A stretch of 64,000 nucleotides of DNA from contig OX439039.1 of NCBI GenBank assembly GCA_949317995.1, forward strand, positions 71,558,002 through 71,622,001, given 5' to 3'. The stretch comes from Acholoe squamosa (taxonomy: Eukaryota; Annelida; Polychaeta; Phyllodocida; Polynoidae). Position numbers and translations under genes: made by a program. Of the stretch, positions 28,052-64,000 are shown in pieces; positions within the stretch are counted from its first letter, which is position 1; each line of letters starts with the position of its first letter. The notes beneath the pieces are model-generated. The model worked only from the letters and a program-made list of their open reading frames with translations, was not told the DNA's origin and did no database searches.

Positions 28052-30241
28052 ATGCAGCACCCGGCTTTTAACGCGCAGCATGCCCAGATGCTTCTGGCAA
28101 GGGGTATGATGGGGCCTCTGCCTCAGAGGCCTCCTGGGGCTATGTACAGACCTACAAATGGCCTGTTCCAGGGCCCTGACCATGGACCGCTTCCTCCAGG
28201 TGCAATGGGATCAAGGATGCGCCACCCGCATCCAGGACCTGGGTCGGTTATCCGCCACATGGGTCAGCATATGGGGCAGCATGTTCCACAACATGCGCCT
28301 CAGCCTACATCACATCTGCCAATACATGCTCCAACCTCTCACCATGCACCGACCCAGGCGAATGGAGCGGCCGCGTCATCCATGCAGGGTCAAGGACGCT
28401 CCTCTGGGCAGGCTCGGGGTCAGGACACTCTACACCGTATCCACCATTTGGCTGCCCAGGCTGTCAATCTACCTGAATCTATGCAGACTAGGGTAGATAG
28501 TGCCAGTACTAAGGGCATCTTTGGTTGGACACAAGTGGATGGGATAGACTTACCTTTCCTACTCAGAGACGAAAAGAAATACCTCGCAGTGCGCATGGTT
28601 GAAATGAAGCTATTGTCCAAATACCCGAGCACATATCCAGAGGAGCTCAAAAGCAGACCACCCCTAATGAGTCACTATATTACAGAAAATGAGGCCAAAA
28701 TACTCAATGAGATTAACAAAAACCACTGTGGAGGAGAGTATGGACAGCACTTGTTTGTCACTCAGGATCTGATTGTCAAAATGGCAGACTTTGAGGACTT
28801 TTACAATATTGTAAAGAAGCATTTCCCTCCCAGTCTTCTTGCTCAGTTACCTCAACAAGCACAGTTGTCTACTATCTCACAGGAGAAGAAAGTAGATGGG
28901 GGCTGGATCCAAATGAACAACACTGTTGTACCTTATGTAATTAGGGGCAAAGCCCGTTATGTACCCCTATCTGTTATTCGCTATGCGGCTGGTCTCCTAA
29001 CTGATGTAAGAGTAGAAGGGGAGGGCCCGAAGGAGGAGGAATGTAGCTATCTCAATGACTGCTGTAAGACTGCAGGAGTGGAATTCAACTTTGTCAGGAC
29101 AACAAAATTGGTGATGCTTGACCTTGTGCAGCGTCTGTGCAATAATACCATTAAACTAGCAGAGCTTCCGAAGGAGGACCCTTTTAGTCAGGCAGAGTAC
29201 CATGGTTCTCTTGATGAGGACAGCAAAGATGAAAGTCTCTCAAACTCTGGAGGAAGTATGTCTCTTTCCACAAACCAAATGCCATACCCAGGAATATCTC
29301 CAGGTAGTAGAGGTGCATCATCCAATGGACCCAGCCCACCCTCTGCTGCCAGTGGTACACCGGTATCGCAAGCCGCCTCCTCAGGTGGTGCAGTGCCCTT
29401 CTGGATGAACCAGCACCTCGGTATATATCCGGGGGCACCAGGAGGATTCCCTCCGGGTGGTGGTCCTCATGGAGGACTGCGTGGTCCAGGACGTCCCCCT
29501 CATGCCCCGGGTATACCTCCCCAACATCAGAGCTCACAGGCTGCTCTTGCCAACCACATTCCCAGTTCAAGCAGACCTTCCAGCCAGGGCTCCCATATTT
29601 CTCCCACAGCCAGCCAGTACCAACCCAAATCCAATGAAGTCAATAACAATTCTTTTGGCGGTGCACAGCGTCGCTCCTCACATGAAGCTATGGACCTGAG
29701 TCGAGAACTGGCTAGCCCTCGGGAGAAGAAGGATTCTAGTAATCCCCCAACACCCTCTGGAACACCTCTTGGTCGTACCCTATCTTCCTCTTCCCTGCCA
29801 CAAGCTACCACCCCAGTGCCTAGAACTAGCAGTGCTGGGTCTGCAAGTGGTGGAGGCATCCACAGGAGTACTCCAGACGGTTCTCCACATGCCATGCTAC
29901 CGGGCGTGCCCCCCGGAGTAATCCCAACTCTTCATCCAAGCCTGCAGGTAGGCCCTGATGGGCACCCTGTGCTTGGTAGTCTAGTGCCCCCTGGACATCC
30001 CGGATGGCATCCCATGATGAACAATCCAGCAGAATATCACAAGATGGTGCAGATTATGCAGCTTCAAGCCATGGCTCAACAACAGCAGCAACAACAACAC
30101 CAGCTCCAACAGCAACTGCAGATGTTGGAGCAACAACATCAGCATCAACAACGGTTAAAACAGCATGAGGCCATGTCGAAGGCCTCTCGACCTGGTCCTC
30201 GACAAGATGCACCACGTTCTGCACCAACTGGTGCACCTCAG
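28052..30241 (+). CDS. Large nuclear-type protein with SKI/DAC-like modules, exon encoding residues 1-730
   Basis: The ATG has an A at -3 (CACCATG) and an in-frame stop 18 bases upstream. Residues 1-150 are rich in Pro, His, Gly and Gln. Module 1 (about 154-258) begins GWTQVDGIDLPFLLR. Module 2 (about 280-365) begins GWIQMNNTVVPYVIR. Both continue with a Tyr and a run of aliphatic residues, so the two are related. Their order of elements recalls the SKI/SNO/DAC fold, but that is inference. Residues 375-660 are Pro/Ser/Gly-rich and disordered, with EAMDLSREL at 545-553. Residues about 670-715 are Gln-rich and likely helical or coiled coil. The exon ends CAG|GTAAAG in phase 0. A transcription or chromatin cofactor is the likeliest role. 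I do not recognise a named orthologue. Confidence 0.85.
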
Positions 30242-30933
30242 GTAAAGTTTCCCATTTTCGCCTGTAAAACTGTAAATACAATTATCTAGCCATGAATATG
30301 ATGTCCAATCGCTCATTCAATCACTCCATGCGAAATTGCTATGATAATAACGTGACTCTACCATGGCAGGTTGTACATTGTACAATTTGCCTTGATAAAA
30401 ACATAACGACTTCTTGGTGATTTGATGAATACTGATGTACATTGACATGACTTTTACATGACATATTGCTCTCGTTTTCTCCGACCTCTTGTTCGAATAA
30501 TGCATGAATTCAGCTTCAATGGTGCTGCATCCATGCATCACGCCAATCCATAATTGATCATACATTCCCAGAGAGTTGGAATGATGCACCAATGCAAGCC
30601 CACAAATTACCGATTCTGATCTGGTGCCTCATGGCTGAGGGCAAATGGCAACAAAACTATGAATAATGCATTCCTCATTGGTTTAACCCATTAATGGCTA
30701 CTGATGCATTAATGCATCATGCATATTGGTCGTCATGATGCACCAATGAAGTGCTGGCGAGCAGTATCGCCAGCACTCCTGGAGTATATATGTATCAACC
30801 CCGTAGGGTAGGCATGGGCATGATGCATCAACGGCCTTTAAAGGGTTAAATTAAATGTAGCAGTGTGATTACCATGATAGAAAAGAAATTGTAGCTGTGA
30901 TCTTATCTCTTATACTTCCATTTTCTTTTTCAG
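30242..30933 (+). other. Phase-0 intron of the host gene
   Basis: Donor CAG|GTAAAG at 30241/30242 and acceptor CTTTTTCAG at 30933, 692 bp. Both flanking codons are whole, and the reading frame continues without interruption into 30934. Without splicing the upstream frame ends at 30289. The intron carries CATGATGCAT-family repeats at about 30490-30610 and 30689-30844. Confidence 0.85.
30689..30844. mobile_element. TTAA-flanked CATGATGCAT MITE inside the intron
   Basis: Left TTAA|CCCATTAATGGC and right GGCCTTTAAAGGG|TTAA give imperfect inverted ends and a TTAA duplication. The interior has GGTCGTCATGATGCACCAATG and a GCTGGCGAG/TCGCCAGC hairpin, as in the copy at 10375-10600. 156 bp, non-coding. 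Confidence 0.5.
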
Positions 30934-33900
30934 ATCCGAGGGCGCAGTGCAAGTACCAGCACTCCACCCCAACCTGGGCCTAGTGCTCAGCAACCTGGAG
31001 GTTCCAAGCCGCCATCAGCCCCTCCAGCCCAAGGAGGATCTGTGAATAAGTCATCTTTAACCCAGGCTGTTATACAAAGGGTGGAATTCCAAGGAAAAAC
31101 CCTGTCCTGTATTGTCAAAGGAGAGCGCAAGGAGTACTATGCACTGGTTGAAGCACTATCCCGAGTCTACTTCCCAAATTGTACTTTGGAAGATTTCCAG
31201 TTTGCTCTTGAAAAGTCTCTTCAAGTTCCTCTAGTGGGACTTACTGAGGAGGAAGAACGATCTTTCATTAGTTTCTACAATATTCCAACAAAGACATTGA
31301 TGTGCAACAAGGTCATTAGATTGGCAGAGTTCCAAGAGCTCATTCCCCAGCTCAAAGCTATGTTCAGAGATAAGCTGTCATCGTCTGCGAGTGAAAACCT
31401 CTCCGACACTGCTATGCCACCACGAGGCACAGTGCTCGTGTCTACTCAGAGTGGCAAGGACTCCAAGCAGAGTTCCTCAGGTGAAGCTAAGGAATCGCCA
31501 TCATCCTCAACACCTGGGACTCCAACCGTTAGCAGTGACGCAGTCGGAAAGATATCGGCCGCTCTGAAGGCAGCTTTGGGGAAGAGGCCTGCACCGTCTG
31601 ATAATGACAGCACTGATGGGCAGGATAGTCCTGGGCCATCAAAACAACCTAAAGTTAGCATCGAAGATGCAGTAAACCGTCTCAAGCAGTTCCAGGCTGA
31701 GCAGAAAAGTAAACGCAAGTCCTCGAAACCCGCGCGAAGAACAGGTTCCCAGTCACCAACTTCAGACACTCCGACTGAATACATGGCAAGATCTCCTGAC
31801 ACTGATATCCAGAGTGTCACTGAAAATGAAAATGAACCCCTTGAAATCACTGATAAGGAAGAAACAGCTGATAAGGAAGGAAGTTATAAGGGGACAGATA
31901 GGAGTGAACCAATGGAGGTGGATAGTTCAGAACCTGTAGAATCAGAAAGCAAGGAAAGTGTCTCAGAATCTTCAGCATCACAGCAAGAAGCCACAGATTT
32001 GTCCAGTGTGAAAGTGGCATCTGAAGCAGTGCCAGAAACACCCAGAATAACTGGTGAAGAAGAAGCTGTAAATTTAAAGTCTACCATAAATGTAGAATCT
32101 ACCGTCAATGTAGAATCTACCGAACAGCTCACTGCAGCTAATATGGCACTTGACTTTTCTAGTAAGTCAAAGGAGGACAATCCATGTGATGAAACAGTGA
32201 AAGATGCTGATCATGCTGAGACCCAGAAGGACAAAGATGTGAAGACGTCCACCCAATGGTGGGCGAATACTCAGCCAGAGACTGCCTCAGAGGATTTGCT
32301 GCTAAATGAAAGTAAATCTTTAGGCACAGCTACAGATGAAGCTGAAATTGGAATAGATTATTCAGCCAGTAAGCCCGATCAATCAGACAAATATGTTGAT
32401 GCTAAACATAGTTCATCTGGCAGTGGTGACACAACGGAGGTGCTAAATTTGGCAGTTTCATCGAATAGTGTTGGTGATACTGCCAATATTCAAACACCAA
32501 TTTCTAGTGATGAGAAGGTTGATACAGACTCATCGACAGTTACCAAAGATGATATTCCACAAAAGGAACAACCCCAATCTGGAGACTTACCTGCTATACC
32601 TTCAGGAGCAACTATTAGTGTTGAAAGCTCTGCAGAGGAGAATAAGAGTGATATTCCCTCTGTAGATACCAGCAGAGTAGTAGACACAGAGGAAACAGGT
32701 GACAAGGTGCTTTCTGAACAACCAGTTGATATGCATAGTACTCCCGCAGCTCGGTACGACATTGTTTCTGAAGTTGACACATCCGCTTTAGCGCTAGGCG
32801 TCACAATGCCTGTTAGTGCAGAGTCAAGGCTTGAATTTGCAGAAGCTCAATCTGCTTCAACTACTGTCACTAGTGACAGAGAGCTTTCCATGGAGGACCA
32901 GGGTTCTGTCTCAACTAATGTGAATGAACTGAATGAACCTCAGCCTTCTGATGAGTGTCTAGAATCTACCTCTAGCACCTCACAGGAGGTACAAATAACT
33001 AACATTGATGACAGTCAGCCAAACCAGGATAAATTGCCAGAAATTGACGTATCTAACCAATCTAGTGCTGCTCAAAGTGAAACCACAAATAATACCCAGT
33101 CTTCTGATGCCGATGCAGTGAAACAAATTCCAAATGAGGAACCTATAAATCTGGCTGTGACCGATAGTAATGATGATATGGAGGTCACAGCTAGTGACGA
33201 TACTACACCACTCAACCTTGCCACAGTCCCCAGCACTCAGCAGGACAGGGATATCTCCCCTATGGAGACTACCACTGACATTAGAGAACAGGATCTATGT
33301 GCTGAAACTGCAAATCTAAACCAAAGTGAAAATTCCAAAACCTCTGATAACTTTGGCGTAGATGATACTCAGCAACTTAAAACTGTGACTGATATTGGCA
33401 TGACCCAAGGAAACCCTTCAGATGATAAAATCAATTCTAGTAAAACAGATGAGAGTGTTTCACCTGTTTCAAGTGGTGCCCCCTGTGAGCTTCTCCCAGT
33501 TACCAGTTATGATGATTTGCAGCAATCTGTGTTAGACCAAATAGGGGATCAATCAAAAGTAGAGGAGGAGTCTCCCTCAATGTCAAATTTTAACGAGAAT
33601 GTTGAGGTTGAAGATGAAAGCAGCTCTCAGCAGGGGGATATGGCTGTTAACCTTGAGACCACACCCACAATAACTGACACTGATCATGCAATATTGAATA
33701 CTAAAGGTAGCAATCTCTACATAGATGAAGGCAGCAGCACAGCCGCCAAATTATCATATGAAAGCGTGCAAGATGATAGTGATGGCCCATTCCCCTTTGC
33801 TATTGATAGTCAAGGCAATACATCTACCGCAGCACTTACTGGTGAGGCAAAAAAGCAAGAGGTGGGTAGTATTGACACAAAGTGTTCTGAAAATAATGAT

Positions 33901-36321
33901 GTGAGATCGGAACCAATACCTGCAGAATCCACAGTAGAAGTGGCTCATAATGCCCCTATAATGGACCTGTTCCCTGGTTTGGATGAGGATGATGATGGTG
34001 ACGAGGATGAAGAACAAAATGCACAGGATGGTTTCATAAAATGTTCTGGTGTTTCAAAGAGTACACCAATAATTACAGATGTTCCTGTACCCACCATACA
34101 AAGAGACACTGTTGGGGAAACATCAGTTGAGGACAATCTAAATAAAGAACAGGGGGCCGCATTGGTTGTGGACAATACAAGCGATTTTAAACCAACGATT
34201 TCCAGTACCAGCAATGAGTCAGCCAATATGGTTAGTCCAGAACCTATTACCAAAACCATTGGGGAGGGGGCAGATTCTCAAATTAAGGATACTGCCATTG
34301 TACTTCCCACTGAAACCATTCAGGAGGAGAGTGCAGATAATAAATCAGTAGACAATACAGAGTCATGTACCACTATGCAAGTAAAAGAACAGAATACTGA
34401 GGATAAGACCCCAGAGGAGAAAATTAGTACATGCAGTACAGGTGTAACTGATGCAGTAGTAATTGAAAAGGATTCTGTTAACACCACCGTAGAGGAGAAC
34501 GCAGGTGAGAATATAGTGAATATGCCGAGCTCACCTGTTCCAAATGAAGCTCCTGTTATTGAGAAACCTGTCGATGATGCCCCTCTGGACGAGGATGTCT
34601 CAATTAATATTAGTAGTAGTGACACAAAAACCTCAGAAATCGAAACCAATGCTGACGGTGCCGACGTCCCTAAGGATGTTGATTCTAGTGATATAAACAT
34701 GGGAAGTGCGTCAGTTTCAAATAACCAGGGAAATGATCATGTGGCAATAGACACTATGGAAGATACCCCAACTTCTAATGATAAAAACCTTGTTGATATT
34801 GAACAGGCTACCGATCTATCAGCCCCTCAAAATACCTCAGAAATTACAGACTCTGTTGGATTAAATGTTACAGAAGAGCAGGGAGTTGAGAGTATGGATG
34901 TAAGTGAGGAAACTAGTATTAATAAAGAGGAAGAGGATCCTAGTGTTTGTATAGAGAAAAGTGACGTTGCCATGGATACGGCAGAGGGTGAGAGTGGGAT
35001 TGTGAATACAAATGGTGCCAGTTTGGATAATACTAAGTCTGTCGATATAAATGTTCATGTTAGTGAAGGCTCATCCATTGATTTAGTCATCCAAGGTTCT
35101 GATACTAAATGTATCAGTGGTGGTAATGAGAGCAGCAGCAATGTAGGGGAATCAAAGGAAATCAACATTGGGCCCTCTACTGATGTCTTAACAGAACCCA
35201 GCTGTAGTGCCGAAGGAGTTACATCAATGGAGTACACAAATGAAGAGTCAGCAGCGGACGTTAGCTATCCAGCGAGTGCTACTACTTCTACCACTATAGA
35301 AAAAATCAATATTGAAACCCCAGCATGCACAGAGAACCAGCAACTTGAGGATGTAGCAGATACACAGGGTAGTGAAATACAAGGAGACAGTTCTGAGAAC
35401 GCCCACAGTAGTACTGAACAGTGCCCCTTGTCATCTGACACAGCTCTCAACATTCAGGATGCCCAAGTAAATGACACCACCCCACAGGGGGACCTGGGAC
35501 CAGAGTCCTCAGAACCTATAGATTCTAGTTCTATGGAGGCTGAGGAAGATATGGAGGTTCCTGACTCTGACCTGGAGGCTAAACTACTAGAGTCCCCTCC
35601 AGGGTCCAGCTGCTATGATGCTCCTGGTGAGGGTCTGGTAGACAGCAGCTCCCTGCCTCCTCCTCCTACTACTACTACTGAGGCAGCTGATGTCAGCAAT
35701 GTCCCTCATGATGCTCCTGCTGACGTCACTGTACCTGAGATGGTCGAGTCTAGAGAGGAGGACGCTGCTATGGTACCAGAGGCTATTGCTCAGGACCCCC
35801 AGTTTGACTCTCAGAACCCCCAGTCTGACTCTCAAGCCTCCCAGTCTGAGGAGGCCTCTCAATCTCAAGATGTCTCTGAACAGGTCTTTGAGACCAAAAA
35901 AGTGTCTGAATCTGAGATGTCTCACTCTGAAAAGGTCGAAGCTTCAACCCAGGAGGGGACAGGGCATTGTGCAGAGGAGGACAAAACCGAGCAGGTTGTC
36001 CCTTCTATGGATCCCACCACAAACTCTGAGGATCAAGGCAAAGAGGCCACTAATATCCCTGATGATCAAAAGGAACTTGTCACAGATGCCTCTGATGATC
36101 AAGGGGAACAGGCCATAAATGTCACTGACCATCAAAAGGACCCTGTTACAAATACCTCTGAAGCTCAAGGGGATCAGGTCATAAATACCCCTGTGGAAGA
36201 GGAGAGTAATGTTGTACTGACTGTCACTAGTAGTAAGCAGGCCGCGACAGAGAGTCTCGAAGAGAAGCCAAGTCCCGCGAGGGAATCTCCCAAAGTAAAT
36301 GTCAGTAATGTGGATTCATAA
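30934..36321 (+). CDS. Large nuclear-type protein, exon encoding residues 731-2525
   Basis: Continues the frame from 30241 and ends with TAA at 36319-36321. A third possible module (about 775-876) runs from VIQRVEFQGKTLSCIV to FQELIPQLKAMF. It includes an E-rich turn and CNKVIRLAEF, which resembles the end of a SKI/DAC domain. A basic cluster KSKRKSSKPARR (988-999) is a likely nuclear localisation signal. The remaining roughly 1500 residues are acidic and rich in Ser, Thr, Asp and Glu, and almost surely disordered. Short motifs like TDLS, PINLA and PLNLA recur. Near the end, five 11-residue units (about 2431-2485) of the type DQKELVTDASD follow each other. The codons stay open for 5.4 kb with protein-like composition. 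It could be split further by undetected introns, but none is needed. Confidence 0.85.
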   Translation: MRGRSASTSTPPQPGPSAQQPGGSKPPSAPPAQGGSVNKSSLTQAVIQRVEFQGKTLSCIVKGERKEYYALVEALSRVYFPNCTLEDFQFALEKSLQVPLVGLTEEEERSFISFYNIPTKTLMCNKVIRLAEFQELIPQLKAMFRDKLSSSASENLSDTAMPPRGTVLVSTQSGKDSKQSSSGEAKESPSSSTPGTPTVSSDAVGKISAALKAALGKRPAPSDNDSTDGQDSPGPSKQPKVSIEDAVNRLKQFQAEQKSKRKSSKPARRTGSQSPTSDTPTEYMARSPDTDIQSVTENENEPLEITDKEETADKEGSYKGTDRSEPMEVDSSEPVESESKESVSESSASQQEATDLSSVKVASEAVPETPRITGEEEAVNLKSTINVESTVNVESTEQLTAANMALDFSSKSKEDNPCDETVKDADHAETQKDKDVKTSTQWWANTQPETASEDLLLNESKSLGTATDEAEIGIDYSASKPDQSDKYVDAKHSSSGSGDTTEVLNLAVSSNSVGDTANIQTPISSDEKVDTDSSTVTKDDIPQKEQPQSGDLPAIPSGATISVESSAEENKSDIPSVDTSRVVDTEETGDKVLSEQPVDMHSTPAARYDIVSEVDTSALALGVTMPVSAESRLEFAEAQSASTTVTSDRELSMEDQGSVSTNVNELNEPQPSDECLESTSSTSQEVQITNIDDSQPNQDKLPEIDVSNQSSAAQSETTNNTQSSDADAVKQIPNEEPINLAVTDSNDDMEVTASDDTTPLNLATVPSTQQDRDISPMETTTDIREQDLCAETANLNQSENSKTSDNFGVDDTQQLKTVTDIGMTQGNPSDDKINSSKTDESVSPVSSGAPCELLPVTSYDDLQQSVLDQIGDQSKVEEESPSMSNFNENVEVEDESSSQQGDMAVNLETTPTITDTDHAILNTKGSNLYIDEGSSTAAKLSYESVQDDSDGPFPFAIDSQGNTSTAALTGEAKKQEVGSIDTKCSENNDVRSEPIPAESTVEVAHNAPIMDLFPGLDEDDDGDEDEEQNAQDGFIKCSGVSKSTPIITDVPVPTIQRDTVGETSVEDNLNKEQGAALVVDNTSDFKPTISSTSNESANMVSPEPITKTIGEGADSQIKDTAIVLPTETIQEESADNKSVDNTESCTTMQVKEQNTEDKTPEEKISTCSTGVTDAVVIEKDSVNTTVEENAGENIVNMPSSPVPNEAPVIEKPVDDAPLDEDVSINISSSDTKTSEIETNADGADVPKDVDSSDINMGSASVSNNQGNDHVAIDTMEDTPTSNDKNLVDIEQATDLSAPQNTSEITDSVGLNVTEEQGVESMDVSEETSINKEEEDPSVCIEKSDVAMDTAEGESGIVNTNGASLDNTKSVDINVHVSEGSSIDLVIQGSDTKCISGGNESSSNVGESKEINIGPSTDVLTEPSCSAEGVTSMEYTNEESAADVSYPASATTSTTIEKINIETPACTENQQLEDVADTQGSEIQGDSSENAHSSTEQCPLSSDTALNIQDAQVNDTTPQGDLGPESSEPIDSSSMEAEEDMEVPDSDLEAKLLESPPGSSCYDAPGEGLVDSSSLPPPPTTTTEAADVSNVPHDAPADVTVPEMVESREEDAAMVPEAIAQDPQFDSQNPQSDSQASQSEEASQSQDVSEQVFETKKVSESEMSHSEKVEASTQEGTGHCAEEDKTEQVVPSMDPTTNSEDQGKEATNIPDDQKELVTDASDDQGEQAINVTDHQKDPVTNTSEAQGDQVINTPVEEESNVVLTVTSSKQAATESLEEKPSPARESPKVNVSNVDS

Positions 36322-42143: not shown

Positions 42144-43702
42144 TTCTTAAATACAAGCTATCATAGTGGTGCTTCCTCGCTCTCCATGTATAATCCTGTC
42201 CCATAGCTACAGTACTCAGTATGCCTTTACCTGGATTAAAATATGGAAATCAGGAATGTGTGTGAGAGCTGGGAGAAGTGTGGTGCTGGTGGTATTGAGT
42301 GTAAGCGGGAGTGGAGCTGGTTCTGGCGACTTGCTCTGATAAGATGGGGACCAGCATGTCCCTGGATGTGGTTGTCATCCAGGGACAAGGTACCCATCAA
42401 GACAATGTCTTATCAGTGTGTTTTGCCACCTTTGGCATAACCAGCGAAATTTAAAATGGTGGACACACTGGATATGGGTCCAGGCTCCTATTGGTGGTGC
42501 TGGTGGTGAATCCTGGCCCTGTGTTCTAGGACTAAGCACCCCCTCCCCTCCCCACTCCTCTCCCCTCGGTAGTGGCCTTGTAAGAACATGCCTGGAACCA
42601 CTGTCCCAGCCTGGGGACCTTACCAGCATCACCAGCACCGCTCTTCTCACTGCTGGTGGTGCTGGTAGTGCCCTCTGGTAGAGCCACAGGACACAGGTAG
42701 TGTTGGATAGTGGTGGCTGAAGTGGTGATAGAGGGCACAGAAATGATCAAGGAGCCCATGTATTAACCCTTAATAAACATCACTTCATCCCTGTCATGAT
42801 TATGCTGCCCTGGTGAGTCACTAGACGTTTCAGAAGTCTATCAGGCTTAGAGGATTAGGTCATGGTGATGCCTGAATGCAACAATCACAAGTTACCTATT
42901 TATAAGGAATACATTGATACATTATTCATGACGACATAGAAGCACTATGCAGCCCTTAAATGGCCAAGGATTTTGATCTTCAAAAGTTATCATTTGGATC
43001 TTAGTGAGCATTGGGACACCTCAACTACCTAATTCTATTGTTTTCCATGTGTGTCGGCCATCTTGGTTTTAGGAAACACAGGGATCCAGGTCATATATGG
43101 TCAATTTTGATCTTCAAAAGTTATCATTTGGATCTTAGTGAGCATTGGGACACCTCAACTACCTAATTCTATTATTTTCTATGTGTGTCGGCCATCTTGG
43201 TTTTAGGAAACACAGGGATCCAGGTCATATATGGTCAATTTTGATCTTCAAAAGTTATCAGATGGATGTTAGTGACCATTGAGACACCTCAACTACCTAA
43301 ATCTATTGTTTTCTATGTGTGTCGGCCATTTTGGTTTTAGATAACACAGGGATCCAGGTCATATATGGTCAATTTTGATCTTCAAAAGTTATCAGATGGA
43401 TGTTAGTGAGCATTGGGACACCTCAACTACCTAATTCTATTGTTTTCTATGTGTGTCGGTCATCTTGGTTTTCGGAAACACTACACTACTCCCACCCCTC
43501 ACACACATTCCATGGAAGGCAATAACAGGTCCACCACCACCACTGCCACCACCAACACTAGAGTAGGAAAGCACCACTATTCTTTGCTTGACTGATTTAC
43601 ATATTTTAATCCAGGTATAGGTATACTCCATACTGTAGCTATGGGACATGATTATACATGGAGATCGAGGAAGCACCACATTGAGAGTTTGTATTTAAGA
43701 TT
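42144..43702. mobile_element. Inverted-repeat element carrying a 134-bp minisatellite
   Basis: The arms 42144-42255 and 43592-43702 are reverse complements with few mismatches (GTGGTGCTTCCTCG, CCCATAGCTACAGTA). The interior has GGTGGT/CCACCA-rich patches near both arms, a CATGATGCAT-family fragment (42760-42965), and four tandem units of 134 bp. No protein is encoded. It is probably a foldback-type or composite non-autonomous element. No target duplication was identified. Confidence 0.55.
42975..43483 (+). repeat. Minisatellite, 134-bp period, about 3.8 copies
   Basis: The word GATCTTCAAAAGTTATCA starts at 42975, 43109, 43243 and 43377, exactly 134 bp apart. The units share TGTGTGTCGGCCAT and CAGGGATCCAGGTCATATA and differ at only a few bases. 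The last unit is incomplete. Confidence 0.9.
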
Positions 43703-44439: not shown

Positions 44440-47262
44440 CCAGCGATAGCAGGACCCCGCTTGCAGGTTGTCATTTTTACAGTGACCGCTGTGGAGGTAG
44501 GAGCTAGGCTCCTTCCCCCTCCACGGCACAAAGCTTGCAGGAGGCCACCATACAAGACGGCCTCAACGGAACCTATATGGCCTTAGGCCGGTAGGGGCTG
44601 GCCACCGGGGGGGACTATGGGGACTAGCCCTATACAACCCTACAACCAAGGGGACCGGCTTCAAAGCACCTTGAGGCCATAAAACGCCTCCACACATCAT
44701 GTGTGCATCCAAGCACGACCAACGGCCACCACTCTGAGCAAACAGAGCGAGCGAGCTTCTCTCTCTGATCCCAGGATTAGAGGAAAAAAGCGAGGGCCAT
44801 AAAACTGCCCATCACGCTGCCCTAAGGCCCCACCCCTCCCACTCCTGATCAGATCAGATACATAAAAAGTTATTTGATTGGAGGGTGAGGAATCCAATTA
44901 AAACAATGGATGGGGCGGGAAGATGTATAAAAGGCTAAGCACAAGACACTCAGCATCACTTCTCAAAAATGGAGCACCAAGCTACCACCCCGAGCTCAGA
45001 CTCCACCATTACCTGCGGACAGGGTACTCCCCAGGGGGATCATACCCAAGCAACAGCATCCAGTCAGAGCGTCCTGGAGGACATTATAGCTGTAAACAGG
45101 GCATGTACGGCCCAATACAGCTTTACATCTGACAGCAGCACTAATGCTGACACCCAGGGTGACATCCCAACACAACAATTTGACTCAATATCTGAGGATG
45201 GGATAGAACCAGAAACTGAGCAACCTAACGCCGGCAGGTCAGGTCAGGTGGAGGATCACATACAAATTCCTCAGGGAGTACAGCAGGGAGATGCCCCTAC
45301 TGCAGCCACTGCAGGGCCCCATAGACTTCCAGCGTGAGCCACTGGTAGAGCCTTTGTCTCACACATGTTCCTAAAAGAAAAATCTAATGGAGTATACAGA
45401 CCCATACTAAACTTGTCAAGCTTAAATGAATACACATAATATAAGCATTTCAAGATGGACCATCTGTCAGTAGTTATGAATACGGTACCAAAAGACAGCT
45501 ACCTAACCAGCATAAACATAACCCAGGCCTACTTTTCACTACTGGTAAAACTAAGGTACAGGGACCTCCTGCATCTAATACACCATGGTAAGAGATACAG
45601 ATTCACCTGCCTCCCCAATGGCTACTCCCCAGGGGCTAGAATCTTTACAAAAATCATGAAAGCACTCACAGCATGCCTGAGAACAAAACACGGGGTAAAC
45701 CTTGTCTTTTTCATAGACAACACATTAATTTATACAGCCAAAAAAAGAGGAAGTCAGAACAGCCACAATACACACACTCAGGGTGCTACAGAATGCAGGT
45801 TTTACGATTAACTTAGAAAATCTTAGAACCAACACAAAGAATTAAGTACCTGGGCTTCACACTGCACTCAACCACACTAACACTTACGATACCAAACAAA
45901 AAACAGGCTGCTATCTCACAAAAAGTGGAGGATATCCTTAAGGTACAAATATGTACCATAGGAAAATTCTCGCAGGTTCTAGGAGCCCTAGCATTCACAG
46001 AACCAGGAAATGACAGAGCAAAGGCACTTACATCATTGCGAAAAACAGGCATTAATAACAACACAGGGTAACTATGACAAATTCATCCCCCTCAGAGGGT
46101 TTATAAAACCAACCTTGAGAGAAAACCTACATTACCTGCCACTCGCAAAGAAGACATACACAGAAAAGTGCCCACAGATAATAACACTATAAACAGACTC
46201 CTTAGACACACGATGGGGTGCCTAAATCCCTGAAACATACTCTGAATATGAGGAAGAATGGTGTGGAAAGATAGAACCCCTCCACATAAACATAAAAGAA
46301 ACCCTAGCAGTCCACAGGGCACTCCTACATTTCAGAAAATCCCTAACATGTTCATAGACAACACCACAGCCATCAGCTGCCTCAACACAGGGGGATCTAG
46401 CCAATACATTCCCTGCAATAAAGCCACTGAAAGTGTATTCAGATTGGCCTGGGAAATGAACATAACATTCAAAACCACATACATTCCCTCAGAAGACAAT
46501 GTTGAGGCAGACAGGGCACCAAGAGCCTTCTCCATGGGGGGAGAATAGACACTGAGCCCCGAAAGCCAACAGAGGCCGGCCATATTCTAAAATTTCCCAA
46601 AACCTGACATTGACCTATTTGCCTCAACCTCCAATGCAATATGCAAACACTTTGTATCTCTTCATCACTACGCAAATGCATATGCAACCGATGCATTCTC
46701 TATAACCTGGTCAGGCCTGTTTGTACTCATATTTCCACCCTTTGGTATCATTGGCAGAACACGAAGGAAACTGAAGGAAGACAGACCCAGAGGGCTGCTA
46801 CTCGTACCGGAGTGGAAGACACAACCCTGGTACCCCAACCTCAAGATACTGCCCACCTTCGAGAACAGATGGACCCTAAGGGTCAACACATCAACACTAC
46901 AGTGGCCAGGGGACCAGAAGAGAATCTTCCCCATGGCCAAACAGGATGAGACTCCTATGCCTGCCCCTATCATGGCCTCCTCATGGCTTCATGGTCAAAA
47001 TCTACCATAGCCAGCTATGCAACAGCAGCAAGGAAGTGGCTAAAACACACCAGCAAAAACGTCAGTGTCAGTGTCACCCACCCTACAATACACCAATGTG
47101 TAGATTTCCTAACAGAGATCTCCAACAGTGGGGTGGGACACTCATCAGTAGCCACCACTAGGTCCCTGATGTCTTGCATAGAAGGCAGAACGTTAGGGGA
47201 GTCGTATAGTATGTATCGGAACGGGACTATAGTTAAGTACTGTTTATTACTCACTCAACCTG
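44440..47262 (+). mobile_element. DIRS-like tyrosine-recombinase retroelement, broken fossil
   Basis: In order on the plus strand: a hydrophilic first frame (about 44969-45337), a reverse transcriptase (about 45370-45860) with the DIRS/Ngaro style of fingers and palm, an RNase H-like part (about 46250-46550) with the family's 'YIPSEDNVEADRA' type ending, and the first part of a tyrosine recombinase (about 46980-47180) with its SAM-like helical region. The catalytic half of the recombinase is not seen before the long inverted-repeat element begins. The element is broken, with several breaks, and looks old or long inactive. Its outer limits are estimates. Confidence 0.7.
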
Positions 47263-48050
47263 CAGCCAATCAGAGGGCTCCATTTGGTCACATGACATGT
47301 GACGTAACAGGACCCCCCGTGGTGCATGCCCATATATGGTCATGTGACCTTGACCTTGACCTCATTTGCATAATAGGCAACGCCTCCATTTGGTCACGTG
47401 ACCTGTGACGTCACTGGACCCCCCGTGGTGCATACCCATATATGGTCATGTGACCTCGACCTTGACCTAATTAGGGTGTGCATACCGATATATGGTCATG
47501 TGACCTTGAGCTCGACCTAATTAGGGGATTACCCGTGACCCCTCATTTTGCATAATAGACCACGCCCCCTTGACCTATTTAGGGGAACGGAACTACAGGA
47601 TGCAACCAATCAGAGGCCTCCATTTGGTTAGTGACCTGTGGGTGCATGCCCATATATGGTCATGTGACCTTGAGCTCGACCTAATAAGTGGTCACGTGAC
47701 CTGGTGGTGAGTTCTTTATTTGGAAAATAGACCACGCCCCCTTTGGTCACGGGACCTACACCCTGCGCGTGGTGAGCTCCTTATTTGGAAAATAGTTTAC
47801 ACCCCCTCAGCCAATTAGAGGCCTTAATTCGTGACCCAATTATGTAAATGGGGGTTGGTTAACCTTTTTTGTATGAAAACAACACGCGGGGAGGGGGCCC
47901 TTGGGGTGGGGTGGGGGGCCCCTTAGGGTAGGGTGGGGTGGGTTGGGGTGGGGTGGGGGGGCCTTGGGGTGGGGAGGGGTCCCTTTGACAAAAAAAATAA
48001 AAAATTAGTTTATTTTTTAAGGCAAGCTAAAAGGGATGGGTTTTTACTTG
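47263..48050 (+). repeat. Left arm of a long inverted repeat
   Basis: Matches the reverse complement of about 54395-54968. It includes GCCCATATATGGTCATGTGACC, TATTTGGAAAATAG, TTGGTTAACC, and a G-rich block (47885-47990). The outer part holds tandem sub-repeats: CCATTTGGTCACATGAC at 47280 and CCATTTGGTCACGTGAC at 47386 are 106 bp apart, and a larger unit recurs after about 366 bp (47216, 47582). Palindromic GGTCACGTGACC and TGACGTCA words are frequent. Confidence 0.75.
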
Positions 48051-60277: not shown

Positions 60278-63200
60278 TGATGTCAGAAGTGAGGATTTTT
60301 TGACCATCTGCCAGTGGAAACAACAACAATGAACAACTAGACTTTAGTCAATAATGTGAGAGTATTTTTGAGGGTGGATGGCAGGTTGGTAAGGAGATAT
60401 TTGTGGGTGAATTTCAACAATTGAGACAACAACACTGGACCACCGGTAAGGCTGAATATTTTATTCCTAGTCAGTCAAGTCAAGTCTACAAGTCAGTCAA
60501 GTCAACATATTCAGTCAAAGTCAAGTCACTGTCAGATATTGTCAGATACAAATTGTGCCGTATTTGACATTGTCAAGTCCATGTAAAGACAATTGATGTA
60601 GTCACCCTACTTCACCAAACCTTGCCACTCTATACCTAAGCCCCTCAAATAAGCTGCCAAGTCTAGTAGGTGCCTGTCTACGGTGGTACGCACTAGTGTG
60701 TAACAGTCAAGTCAGTCAAGAGAATCAGTGACATTTTTCTTAATACATACAAAGCACTAGTAGGCCTACCCACCTCGTCAAAATGCCTAAATATCAGCCG
60801 CCAGAGCCATTCGACTTCACTAAACCGGCATCATGGCCGGATTGGAAAACCAGGTTTTCTCGTTATTTTATTCTCGAGAAGATCCGTGATGAGGAGCCGG
60901 ACGTGCAAGTTTCAGCCCTGGTATATACTATGGGCCGCCAGGCTGAACATATCTACAAGTCCTTTAAGTTTGCCGCACGCCCCGAGCCCACAGACGACGA
61001 GCCCGATCCGGTCGACCCGAAAGACGATTTCGAAACAGTTTTGAAGAAATTTGACGACTATTTTGTCCCGCGGAAGAACACCATCCACGAGCGAACAAAA
61101 TTCTACCAGCGCTCGCAGAAACAAGGTGAGTCAGTCGAATGCTTCGTAAGAAATCTGCATGAGCTTGCAGAGCACTGCAACTTCGAGGAGAAGGAAGACG
61201 AACATATCCGCGATCGTTTAATCGCCGGAATGTTAGACAAGGAGCTATCTCGCGAATTGCAGATGGAGCAAGACACCTTGACGCTTGCAACAGCTACCGA
61301 TAAAGCGCGACACAAGGAGCTCGTGGAGTCGACCCAGAAGGAAGACACGTCAGTCAATGCCGTCCACAATAGAAGCCAGGGATACAAAAAGTCAACGCGT
61401 CAGCCACAGTCAAATCAAGGTCAGTCAAGGTCAAGGTCAGGAGGTCAGTCGAAGCAGAAGTGCCCAAATTGTGGATACGTGCACAGGTCGCCAAGGCCCA
61501 ATGCCTGCCCTGCGATCGGGAAAACGTGCAAGTCCTGCCAGAAAGTCGGACACTTTGCCTCAATGTGTCGTAATAAGAGCGTCAGAGAAGTCTACGACGA
61601 TACTGAGGGAGAAGCCCAGTTTTGTGGTGCGGTGAACTTTGACAACTTCATCGGTGCCATAGACTGCGACGACAGTGGCTCAGCCTGGAAAGTCACACTA
61701 GACCTCGGAACGTCATCCGAGACGTTCAAGATAGACACGGGTGCAGACGTCTCCATAATGTCCTATTTAAACTACCTCAAAGTGAAGCCGCGACCACCCC
61801 TAAAAGACGTCAAAGTCAAATTGTCAAGCCCGGGGGGTCCACTCAGTTGTCGAGGACAGTTCATCGCCAACACCGTCTACAAGGGCCAGAAGTACAACTT
61901 CCGTGTCCTAGTCGTGGACGGATCCGGCGAGAGTCTCCTAGGACGAGGAGTCGCCCATCGCATGAACTTAGTCATGCGCATCCAAGCCGTCAGTCAGGAC
62001 ATCGGATGCCTCGAAACAGATCCAGTCAAGATCGTACTTCGAGACGATGCCCAGCCAGTCGCCGTCAACGTCGCCAGACGTATCCCCTTTCCCTTGGTCG
62101 AGAAGGTGAGGGAGGAGATAAAGCGCCTAACGTCTCTAGGCATAGTAAGGAAGATCACCAAGCCAACACCATGGTGTGCTCCCATGGTACCAGTCCTGAA
62201 GAAGTCCGGCAAGGTCCGCCTCTGCGTAGACCTGAAGAAGCTGAATGTCAACGTCCAACGAGAACGCTTCGTCCTGCCGACCTTGGATGATCTAACCTCT
62301 AGACTCACAGGCGCTGCAAGGTTTTCATGCCTCGACGCAGCAAGCGGATTCTACCAGATCCCGCTAGACGAGCGGAGTCAAGAGCTGACTACTTTCATCA
62401 CTCCGTTCGGTCGCTATTGCTTCCGACGCCTGCCATTTGGCATCACATCAGCCCCCGAGATCTTCATGCGGAAGATGCTCGAAGCCCTGGAGGGGTTAGA
62501 TGGAGTCTTCATTTACATGGATGACATCCTTGTATATGGGAAGGACGATGCTGAGCATGACGATCGCCTGTCCAAAGTCGTCAAGACACTCGATCGTGTC
62601 GGTCTTAAGTTAAACCATGACAAATGCTCATATAAGAAGAAGGAGCTCAAGTTCCTTGGGCACGTCTTCAGTCAAGATGGCATTCGGGCAGACCCCGATA
62701 AAGTCCAAGCCATAAACCAGATGCCGCCGCCTACATCTGTCACCCTGCTACGTCAGTTCATGGGAATGGTGCACTACCTCGGATCATACCTGCCCCACCT
62801 GAACTCAGTCACCGGTCCACTGAATGATTTACTGAAGTCAGACCGAGAGTGGACCTGGGATGCAGCGCAGGAAGAAGCCTTCCGTGCGACAAAACAGCTG
62901 ATCGCTTCAACGCCTGTTCTGTCGTACTATGACGTCACCAAACCAGTCATTGTCAGTGCCGATGCCAGCTCTTATGGCCTAGGAGGAGTCCTCCTACAAG
63001 AGCATGGCAGAGCGGTGAAACCAATTGCCTACTGCTCTCGGACACTGACCACCAGCGAGAAGAGATACGCCCAGATCGAGAAGGAGTGTCTGGCCAGCGT
63101 CTGGGCGTGCGAGAAATTCGACCGATACATCCGCGGACATGGAAACGTCACGGTCCTCACGGATCATAAGCCGCTTGTGCCACTCATCAACACCAAAGAC

Positions 63201-64000
63201 CTGGACGAAGTGCCTCTGAGATGTCAGAGACTACTCATGAGGTTGATGAGGTACAACATCAATGCCAAGCATGTCCCGGGTAAAGAGATGCTAATCTCAG
63301 ACGCACTCTCGCGGAGTCCACTTGTCTCGACCCTGTCCTCAACAGTCGAGGATGTAGAAATGCACGTCCAGTCAGTCGAGTCAACCCTTCCTGCATCAGA
63401 CGCCAAGAAGGAGGAGCTTCGCACTGCAACAACCAATGACCCGGTCCTCCAGTCAACTATCGTCTACACGCTGACTGGGTGGCCGAAATACGAGAAGAAT
63501 GTCCCAGACAACCTCAAGAGCCTGTATGCACATCGTGCATCACTGTCAGTCACAGATGGACTACTTGTGTTCGCCTCAAGGATTGTCATTCCAACTTCCA
63601 TGAGGCCGGAAATACTTGCTCGAGTCCACGACGGTCACCAAGGAATCACCAAATGCCTCGAGAGAGCACGTCTCGGTGTTTGGTGGCCTGGAATCACTAA
63701 TGACATCAAGAGAATAGTTAGCATGTGCAGCCACTGCACTGAGCACAAGCCGACACAGAAGCGCGAGCCGCTCATGTCTACACCATTGCCACAAGGGCCT
63801 TGGTTGCGAGTCGGAGTAGATCTATTTGTCTTCAAAGGGAAGGACTATCTAGTCATGTGTGACTACTACTCCAGGTGGATAGAGGTCCTCGCCTTAACGT
63901 CTACCACCACCACAGCCGTCACTGGACGTATGAAGGACGCTGTCGCCCGTTTCGGTGTGCCACTAGAAATAGTATCCGACAACGGTCCGCAGTTTTCGTC
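60278..64000 (+). mobile_element. Ty3/gypsy-type retroelement, gag-pol, running off the window
   Basis: After a leader rich in AGTCAAGTC words, one reading frame starts at ATG 60783 and is still open at 64000. Parts in order: gag-like region; zinc knuckles at about 61458-61569 (CKSCQKVGHFASMC); protease (IDTGADVSIM, about 61731); reverse transcriptase (about 62080-62660, YMDD at about 62515); RNase H (about 62940-63300, SADASSYGLGG); integrase zinc-binding part (from about 63620) and the start of its core (VGVDLF, SDNGPQF). One-frame gag-pol and the short LTR fit the mag/SURL group known from sea urchins and other invertebrates. It looks whole in the part visible, with no breaks seen, so it is probably young. 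The 3' end is outside. Confidence 0.9.

Follow-up and report, generated by a model that had tools for sequence, protein, structure and literature searches.

A predicted annelid protein with three diverged SKI/Dachshund-like modules on long arms, probably a chromatin scaffold

SKI and SnoN (SKIL) each combine one Dachshund-homology domain with one SAND-like domain, and the SAND-like domain of SKI binds SMAD4 (PMC5992185; this and the other papers are cited for the passages available to us). SKOR1 and SKOR2 (Fussel) have a Ski/Sno/Dac homology domain together with a SMAD4-binding domain (PMC6382215). SKIDA1, a chromatin protein that first appears in early vertebrates, combines a SKI/SNO/DAC domain at the N terminus with a conserved region at the C terminus that binds Polycomb repressive complex 2 (PRC2) (PMC8864842). 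Diverged Dachshund-like winged helices are also present in the metazoan chromatin proteins INI1/SMARCB1, PHF10/BAF45a, BCOR and DNTTIP1, and that of INI1 went unidentified until the study that described it (PMC4509781). Here, we examined a 64,000-nucleotide window from the annelid Acholoe squamosa (GCA_949317995.1, contig OX439039.1, positions 71,558,002 to 71,622,001 of the forward strand), which holds a predicted gene for a protein of 2525 amino acids with three modules (M1, M2 and M3) that resemble this domain. We read the protein as a nuclear corepressor scaffold with three diverged Dachshund-homology domains on long arms, with a probability of roughly 0.55.

Coordinates below are those of the window, and all features of the gene lie on the + strand. 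Open reading frames, a splice check and composition defined two coding exons. Exon A (28052..30241, residues 1 to 730) starts at the ATG at 28052, and exon B (30934..36321, residues 731 to 2525) ends with a stop at 36321. Between them lies a predicted intron of 692 bp in phase 0 with GT-AG borders (30242..30933; CAG/GTAAAG at the donor and TTTTTCAG/AT at the acceptor), which preserves the frame and was the best by eye among the listed frame-keeping donor/acceptor pairs. The two exons hold the only two open reading frames of at least 150 residues (ATG, GTG or TTG start) that end inside the window. Their codon scores were 80.3 (exon A) and 600.2 (exon B), and no other listed segment exceeded 30.2, a comparison that is circular for both exons since the score was trained on them, and that leaves frames running off the window ends unscored. 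By composition, exon A encodes a Pro/Gly/Gln/His-rich start, M1, M2, a Ser/Pro/Gly/Gln-rich linker and a Gln-rich stretch (residues about 665 to 710), and exon B encodes M3, a basic patch and then about 1650 residues of an acidic, Ser/Glu/Asp/Thr-rich low-complexity tail. M1 and M2 lie in tandem close to the N terminus, and M3 follows about 400 residues further on. Low complexity was found everywhere outside the three modules: the segment from M2 to M3 is rich in Ser, Pro, Gly and Gln, and the sequence past M3 is strongly acidic (net charge of -53 for residues 881 to 1400 and of -194 for residues 1401 to 2525). These long arms are probably disordered.

The evidence on fold is strongest for M3, which extends over residues about 774 to 876 by sequence and was modeled as residues 771 to 878 (31054..31377). 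It was folded with AlphaFold2 from an alignment of three rows, with M1 and M2 as the sole partner rows. The best of five models had a predicted local distance difference test score (pLDDT) of 84.2 and a predicted template modeling score (pTM) of 0.76, with the order three strands, helix, helix, very short strand, helix, strand and helix. When this model was compared by Foldseek with 350,542 chains of the PDB, the best 12 matches were all Dachshund-homology domains, namely SnoN (3eq5, nine chains), DACH1 (1l8r, two chains) and SKI (1sbx, one chain), with a probability of 1.00, template modeling (TM) scores of 0.67 to 0.78 (0.68 to 0.73 for 1l8r) and E-values of 1.1e-3 to 1.1e-2. The match at rank 13 was unrelated (E-value of 0.96, probability of 0.07). 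For the model, this result is specific, though no E-value was below 1e-3. M3 is thus predicted, with high confidence, to adopt the SKI/SNO/DAC fold, a variant winged helix whose wing contains an inserted helix. SKI and SnoN are the closest known relatives in the predicted fold, length and element order of M3, and they also gave the best sequence matches of both M3 and M2. For M3, the global alignment score was reached by 3/1000 shuffles with SnoN and by 5/1000 with SKI, and in another run by 1/1500 with SKI and 5/1500 with SnoN. A gapless fit of M3 gave 0 (SKI), 0 (SnoN), 6 (DACH1) and 8 (SKOR1) of 5000 shuffles, but it overstates significance because the register and a one-residue deletion were picked by hand; we therefore relied on the global alignments. 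A SAND fold was considered as well and rejected, since Pfam returned no SAND row and there was none among the best 50 of 98 Foldseek rows for the M3 model.

Among predicted structures, the M3 model also matched uncharacterized proteins of Hyperionvirus, Marseillevirus LCMAC101, Medusavirus and Harvfovirus, together with Bro-N proteins. As far as a model can tell, these matches hint that the Bro-N and SKI/SNO/DAC folds are more widely related. A search of open-license papers found none that combined dachshund with Bro-N or KilA-N.

M1 (residues 157 to 258, 28520..28825) and M2 (residues 283 to 374, 28898..29173) are repeats of each other. GWTQVDG begins at residue 158 in M1 and GWIQMNN at residue 284 in M2, and the two share the core GW.Q......P...R....Y. 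Their local alignment score of 50 was matched by 0/2000 shuffles, and their global alignment (z score of 5.7) by 0/1000. M3, which begins at about residues 774 to 776, is only weakly similar to either: the M1-M3 local alignment was not significant (436/2000 shuffles) and the M2-M3 one was marginal (46/2000), and global alignment gave 22/1000 and 129/1000, respectively. By eye, the tails of M2 (LCNNTIKLAEL) and M3 (MCNKVIRLAEF) are similar. M2 has two candidate ends, either RLCN, like the end of the SKI domain, or TIKLAEL, within the tail that is like that of M3. According to a hand alignment, the loop that precedes the last strand is longer in M1 than in the known domains, and M2 appears to be without helix 2. 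A six-frame search of the window gave no fourth module; its matches were the two exons, followed by a match with an E-value of 0.4. These comparisons of all three modules agree with the first-pass annotation of the locus, which had proposed M1 and M2 as internal repeats and a weaker third module after the intron (residues about 775 to 876). That annotation had also separated the visible repeat from what it took to be inference, the fold and M3, and its caution on M3 was justified.

The joint model of M1 and M2 was unusable, and sequence evidence was therefore needed for these two modules. We aligned residues 156 to 258, 282 to 368 and 775 to 870 globally with the domains of DACH1, SKI, SnoN and SKOR1, using one setting for all 12 pairs; this gap setting was the second tried, after a first that gave meaningless alignments for most pairs. 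The summed score of the 12 pairs was reached by 0/3000 shuffles, and that of the M1 and M2 pairs only by 16/3000, while a control with reversed reference domains gave 299/1000. The strongest single pairs of M1 and M2 were M1-SKOR1 (9/1000), M2-SnoN (21/1000) and M2-SKI (29/1000), and the weakest was M2-DACH1 (757/1000). A second global run gave 21/1500, 32/1500 and 35/1500 for the same three strongest pairs. M3-DACH1 (24/1000) is no evidence by itself because reversed DACH1 gave 46/1000 with M3. As a calibration, the score of INI1, which is related in structure to SnoN and SKI (PMC4509781), was reached by 34/2000 shuffles against SKI and by 359/2000 against DACH1, so that an equally weak signal is found between structural relatives; M1 against INI1 gave 33/2000 (267/2000 with reversed INI1). 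A family matrix was also scanned along the protein for four elements. The last strand-helix element, the informative one of the four, placed M2 1st, M1 2nd and M3 9th of 2510 positions. For the middle helix, M1 ranked 6th (in register), M2 34th and M3 5th (out of register) of 2510 positions; for the hairpin, M1 ranked 25th, and M2 22nd and M3 2nd, both out of register, of 2504; and for the hairpin plus helix, M1 ranked about 9th (in register), M2 21st and M3 4th (out of register) of 2496. As judged from sequence, M1 and M2 probably have the SKI/SNO/DAC fold, and it is likely that all three modules do. The earlier guess of this fold thus held in the structural check of M3, while for M1 and M2 it has statistical support and their mutual repeat in its favor, their own model being of no use.

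To consider what such a protein might do, we examined motifs and charge. Three candidate CtBP-type motifs were found by pattern in the arms: AMDLS at residues 546 to 550 (29687..29701), and ATDLS at residues 1083 to 1087 (31990..32004) and again at residues 2022 to 2026 (34807..34821). They are the three matches, all of the form A-x-D-L-S, to the pattern [PAV]-x-D-L-[ST], for which 0.35 were expected and which reached this count in 3/1000 local shuffles. Two looser patterns were enriched as well (6 versus 1.24 expected, 1/1000; 8 versus 1.58 expected, 0/1000). Fly repressors recruit CtBP via PxDLS motifs (PMC9890238), and two ALDLS motifs of RAI2 bind CtBP (PMC11187106). RAI2 is similar to the present protein in having more than one A-x-D-L-S motif and disordered regions, but it is described as without folded domain structure, and its two motifs are 21 residues apart versus hundreds here. 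A basic patch, KRKSSKPARR (residues 990 to 999, 31711..31740), is a candidate nuclear localization signal by pattern only. The net charges, which are not surface charges, were -2 for M1, +1 for M2 and -2 for M3, compared with -4 for SKI, -2 for SnoN, +3 for DACH1 and +5 for SKOR1. In DACH1, a positively charged face was suggested for DNA binding, whereas in SKI and SnoN DNA binding was considered less likely since this face is more neutral, and a protein-binding groove is found there (PMC2944819). The SKI domain reportedly no longer binds DNA and binds R-Smads, NCoR and Skip (PMC5992185). Because the net charges of the modules are nearer those of SKI and SnoN than those of DACH1 and SKOR1, protein binding is our first choice over DNA binding. 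We propose that the modules would hold protein partners in the domain groove as in SKI and SnoN, either sequence-specific factors or NCoR-type corepressor subunits, and that CtBP would be recruited through the A-x-D-L-S motifs of the arms, so that the scaffold could bring a repressor complex to chromatin. As a proposal, this scaffold model hangs together. More tentatively, the protein might represent an undescribed animal family of chromatin scaffolds with three Dachshund modules, one of them shortened and all without the groove motif CLPQ; it would then be a multivalent repressor hub whose modules bind different partners simultaneously and whose disordered arms gather several CtBP tetramers.

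Several results weigh against a corepressor scaffold with three Dachshund-homology domains. The four remaining M3 models had pLDDT values of 56.7, 48.2, 45.6 and 40.7, and the M3 model was obtained only with the M1 and M2 rows present. The joint model of M1 and M2, made from a single sequence, had a pLDDT of 36, and no SKI-fold match was among the best 50 of its 205 Foldseek rows. Five Pfam queries with E-values up to 10 gave no row for PF02437 (Ski_Sno_DHD), in a search whose filters drop most weak matches; the curated cutoff is 24.5 bits, and the positive controls DACH1 and SKOR1 scored 135.9 and 127.5 bits. Profile-profile tests of the modules against the SKI family were not significant. 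The SKI fold was recovered neither by hhalign with a MAFFT alignment of the modules against SKI/SnoN/DACH1, nor by hmmsearch with the SKI/SnoN/DACH1 family profile and hhalign of each module. With a hand-made module alignment, the hhalign score was reached by 40/200 column shuffles locally and 38/200 globally. Single modules gave 24 (M1), 11 (M2) and 12 (M3) of 150 against a four-member profile, and 1 (M1) and 30 (M2) of 150 against a five-member profile to which M3 had been added. Local alignments (24 tests, from three modules, four domains and two matrices) were mostly not significant, with 20 and 96 of 3000 for M3-SKI, 103 and 243 for M1-SKOR1, 139 and 105 for M2-SnoN, and at least 162/3000 for the rest. 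PDB sequence searches with phmmer gave nothing useful for the modules. As for the motifs, the canonical P-x-D-L-[ST] is absent (0 in the protein), one looser CtBP pattern was not enriched (3 versus 1.35 expected, 155/1000 shuffles), and the CtBP patterns were framed after inspection of the sequence.

The weak signals of M1 and M2 raise the question of whether M3 is the only true SKI/SNO/DAC domain, with M1 and M2 being a private tandem repeat of some other small alpha/beta fold. Their useless model, their weak similarity to M3 and the fact that their best single pairs with the SKI family reach just about 1 to 3 percent of shuffles would fit this explanation. It does not account for the joint fit of M1 and M2 to the four reference domains, for their first two ranks in the last family element, or for the confident model of M3 having had these two modules as its sole partners, and we regard it as distinctly unlikely. 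If all three modules do share the fold, they could instead be DNA-binding winged helices, and the protein a three-module reader of DNA or nucleosomes rather than a protein-protein scaffold. The SKI/SNO/DAC fold lies within a variant winged-helix group, DNA binding has been proposed for DACH1, and the winged helix of INI1 binds double-stranded DNA by nuclear magnetic resonance (PMC4509781). The fit of M1 to INI1 is about as good as that of INI1 to SKI, M1 also fits SKOR1 (9/1000), and three modules could provide avidity. However, the net charges of the modules are about zero or negative, in contrast to DACH1 and SKOR1, and neither M2 (324/2000) nor M3 (797/2000) fits INI1. We consider a DNA reader unlikely on balance. 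An INI1-like identity for all modules was rejected, as only M1 fits. Capture from viruses, in which the modules would be Bro-N/KilA-N-like domains with a fold common to viral proteins, is highly improbable: the first nine matches of the M3 model to giant-virus and Bro-N predicted structures have probabilities of 1.00 to about 0.9, but query TM scores (TMq) were 0.67 to 0.71 to solved SKI-family domains versus 0.48 to 0.62 to viral proteins (first eight), and the intron and the animal-regulator composition of the gene, in our judgment, also argue against it.

We next compared the protein with the definitions of the known families. C-L-P-Q is invariant in SKI, SnoN and DACH1, before or at helix 1 (C-L-A-Q in the SKOR1 sequence used), and the Leu-Pro-Gln residues line the groove of SnoN (PMC2944819). 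This motif is absent from all three modules, which have YLAVRM (M1), YVPLSV (M2) and YYALVE (M3) at the hand-aligned site. No row for a SMAD4-binding (SAND-like) domain was returned by Pfam for the exon A and exon B proteins with E-values up to 10, a search that could miss a strongly diverged copy. The DACH family has a second conserved region, the C-terminal coiled-coil Dachbox. Pfam gave no row for such a Dachbox in the protein, which has a Gln-rich stretch only. The protein was not filed as an orthologue of SKI, SnoN, SKOR or DACH because CLPQ, PF02437 and the SMAD4-binding domain were not found. It differs from SKI and SnoN in having three modules, none with CLPQ; from SKOR1 and SKOR2, of which SKOR1 is the best single match of M1, in the SMAD4-binding domain; and from DACH1 and DACH2, which share the fold, in the neutral to negative net charge of its modules where a positive face was described. 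SKIDA1 is alike as a chromatin protein with a SKI/SNO/DAC domain, but it has its domain at the N terminus and, in addition, the PRC2-binding region, for which no search was made here. The protein belongs to the wider Dachshund-like winged-helix group of animal chromatin proteins; in the descriptions available, INI1, PHF10, BCOR and DNTTIP1 differ from it as subunits of SWI/SNF or corepressor complexes that carry a single module each with other domains.

The window appears eukaryotic and animal-like, judging from its spliced regulator gene and its retroelements. A long open retrotransposon frame, presumably of the Ty3/gypsy type by its look, lies at 60744-63995 (+) and is cut by the window end; a 200-residue piece of it matches RVT_1 with an E-value of 1.4e-26. 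A decayed retroelement with broken frames, which we take to be possibly DIRS-like by its look, lies at 45440-47400 (+), and its frame 45440-45808 matches RVT_1 (reverse transcriptase) with an E-value of 5.5e-08. The segment 38983-40046 is directly duplicated, nearly identically, from 40047 onward (spacing of 1064 bp). Its first 300 bases are 100 percent identical (rounded), the first exact run is 105 bases, and 169 mismatches were counted in 1300 positions, flank included. This duplication is either recent or an assembly artifact. At 42970-43481, a unit of 134 bp is repeated in tandem, with 3.8 copies and 94 percent matches. No tRNA and no Rfam family at threshold were found in the window.

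Among the matches listed in a search of open-license papers, there was no protein with several Dachshund-type domains. No homologues of M1-M2 or of M3 were found in viral and genome contig collections, a negative that carries little weight because these collections are viral or prokaryotic. The layout, with three diverged SKI/Dachshund modules and long floppy arms, is unfamiliar and is probably that of a chromatin scaffold. In the sources available, SKI/SNO/DAC and DHD-like proteins are described with one module, and here there are three, too diverged for Pfam. This points to more members of the domain family in animals than annotation records, as was the case with the INI1 domain. The protein is a concrete candidate for a corepressor scaffold, and its modules could reveal which residues of the groove are dispensable.

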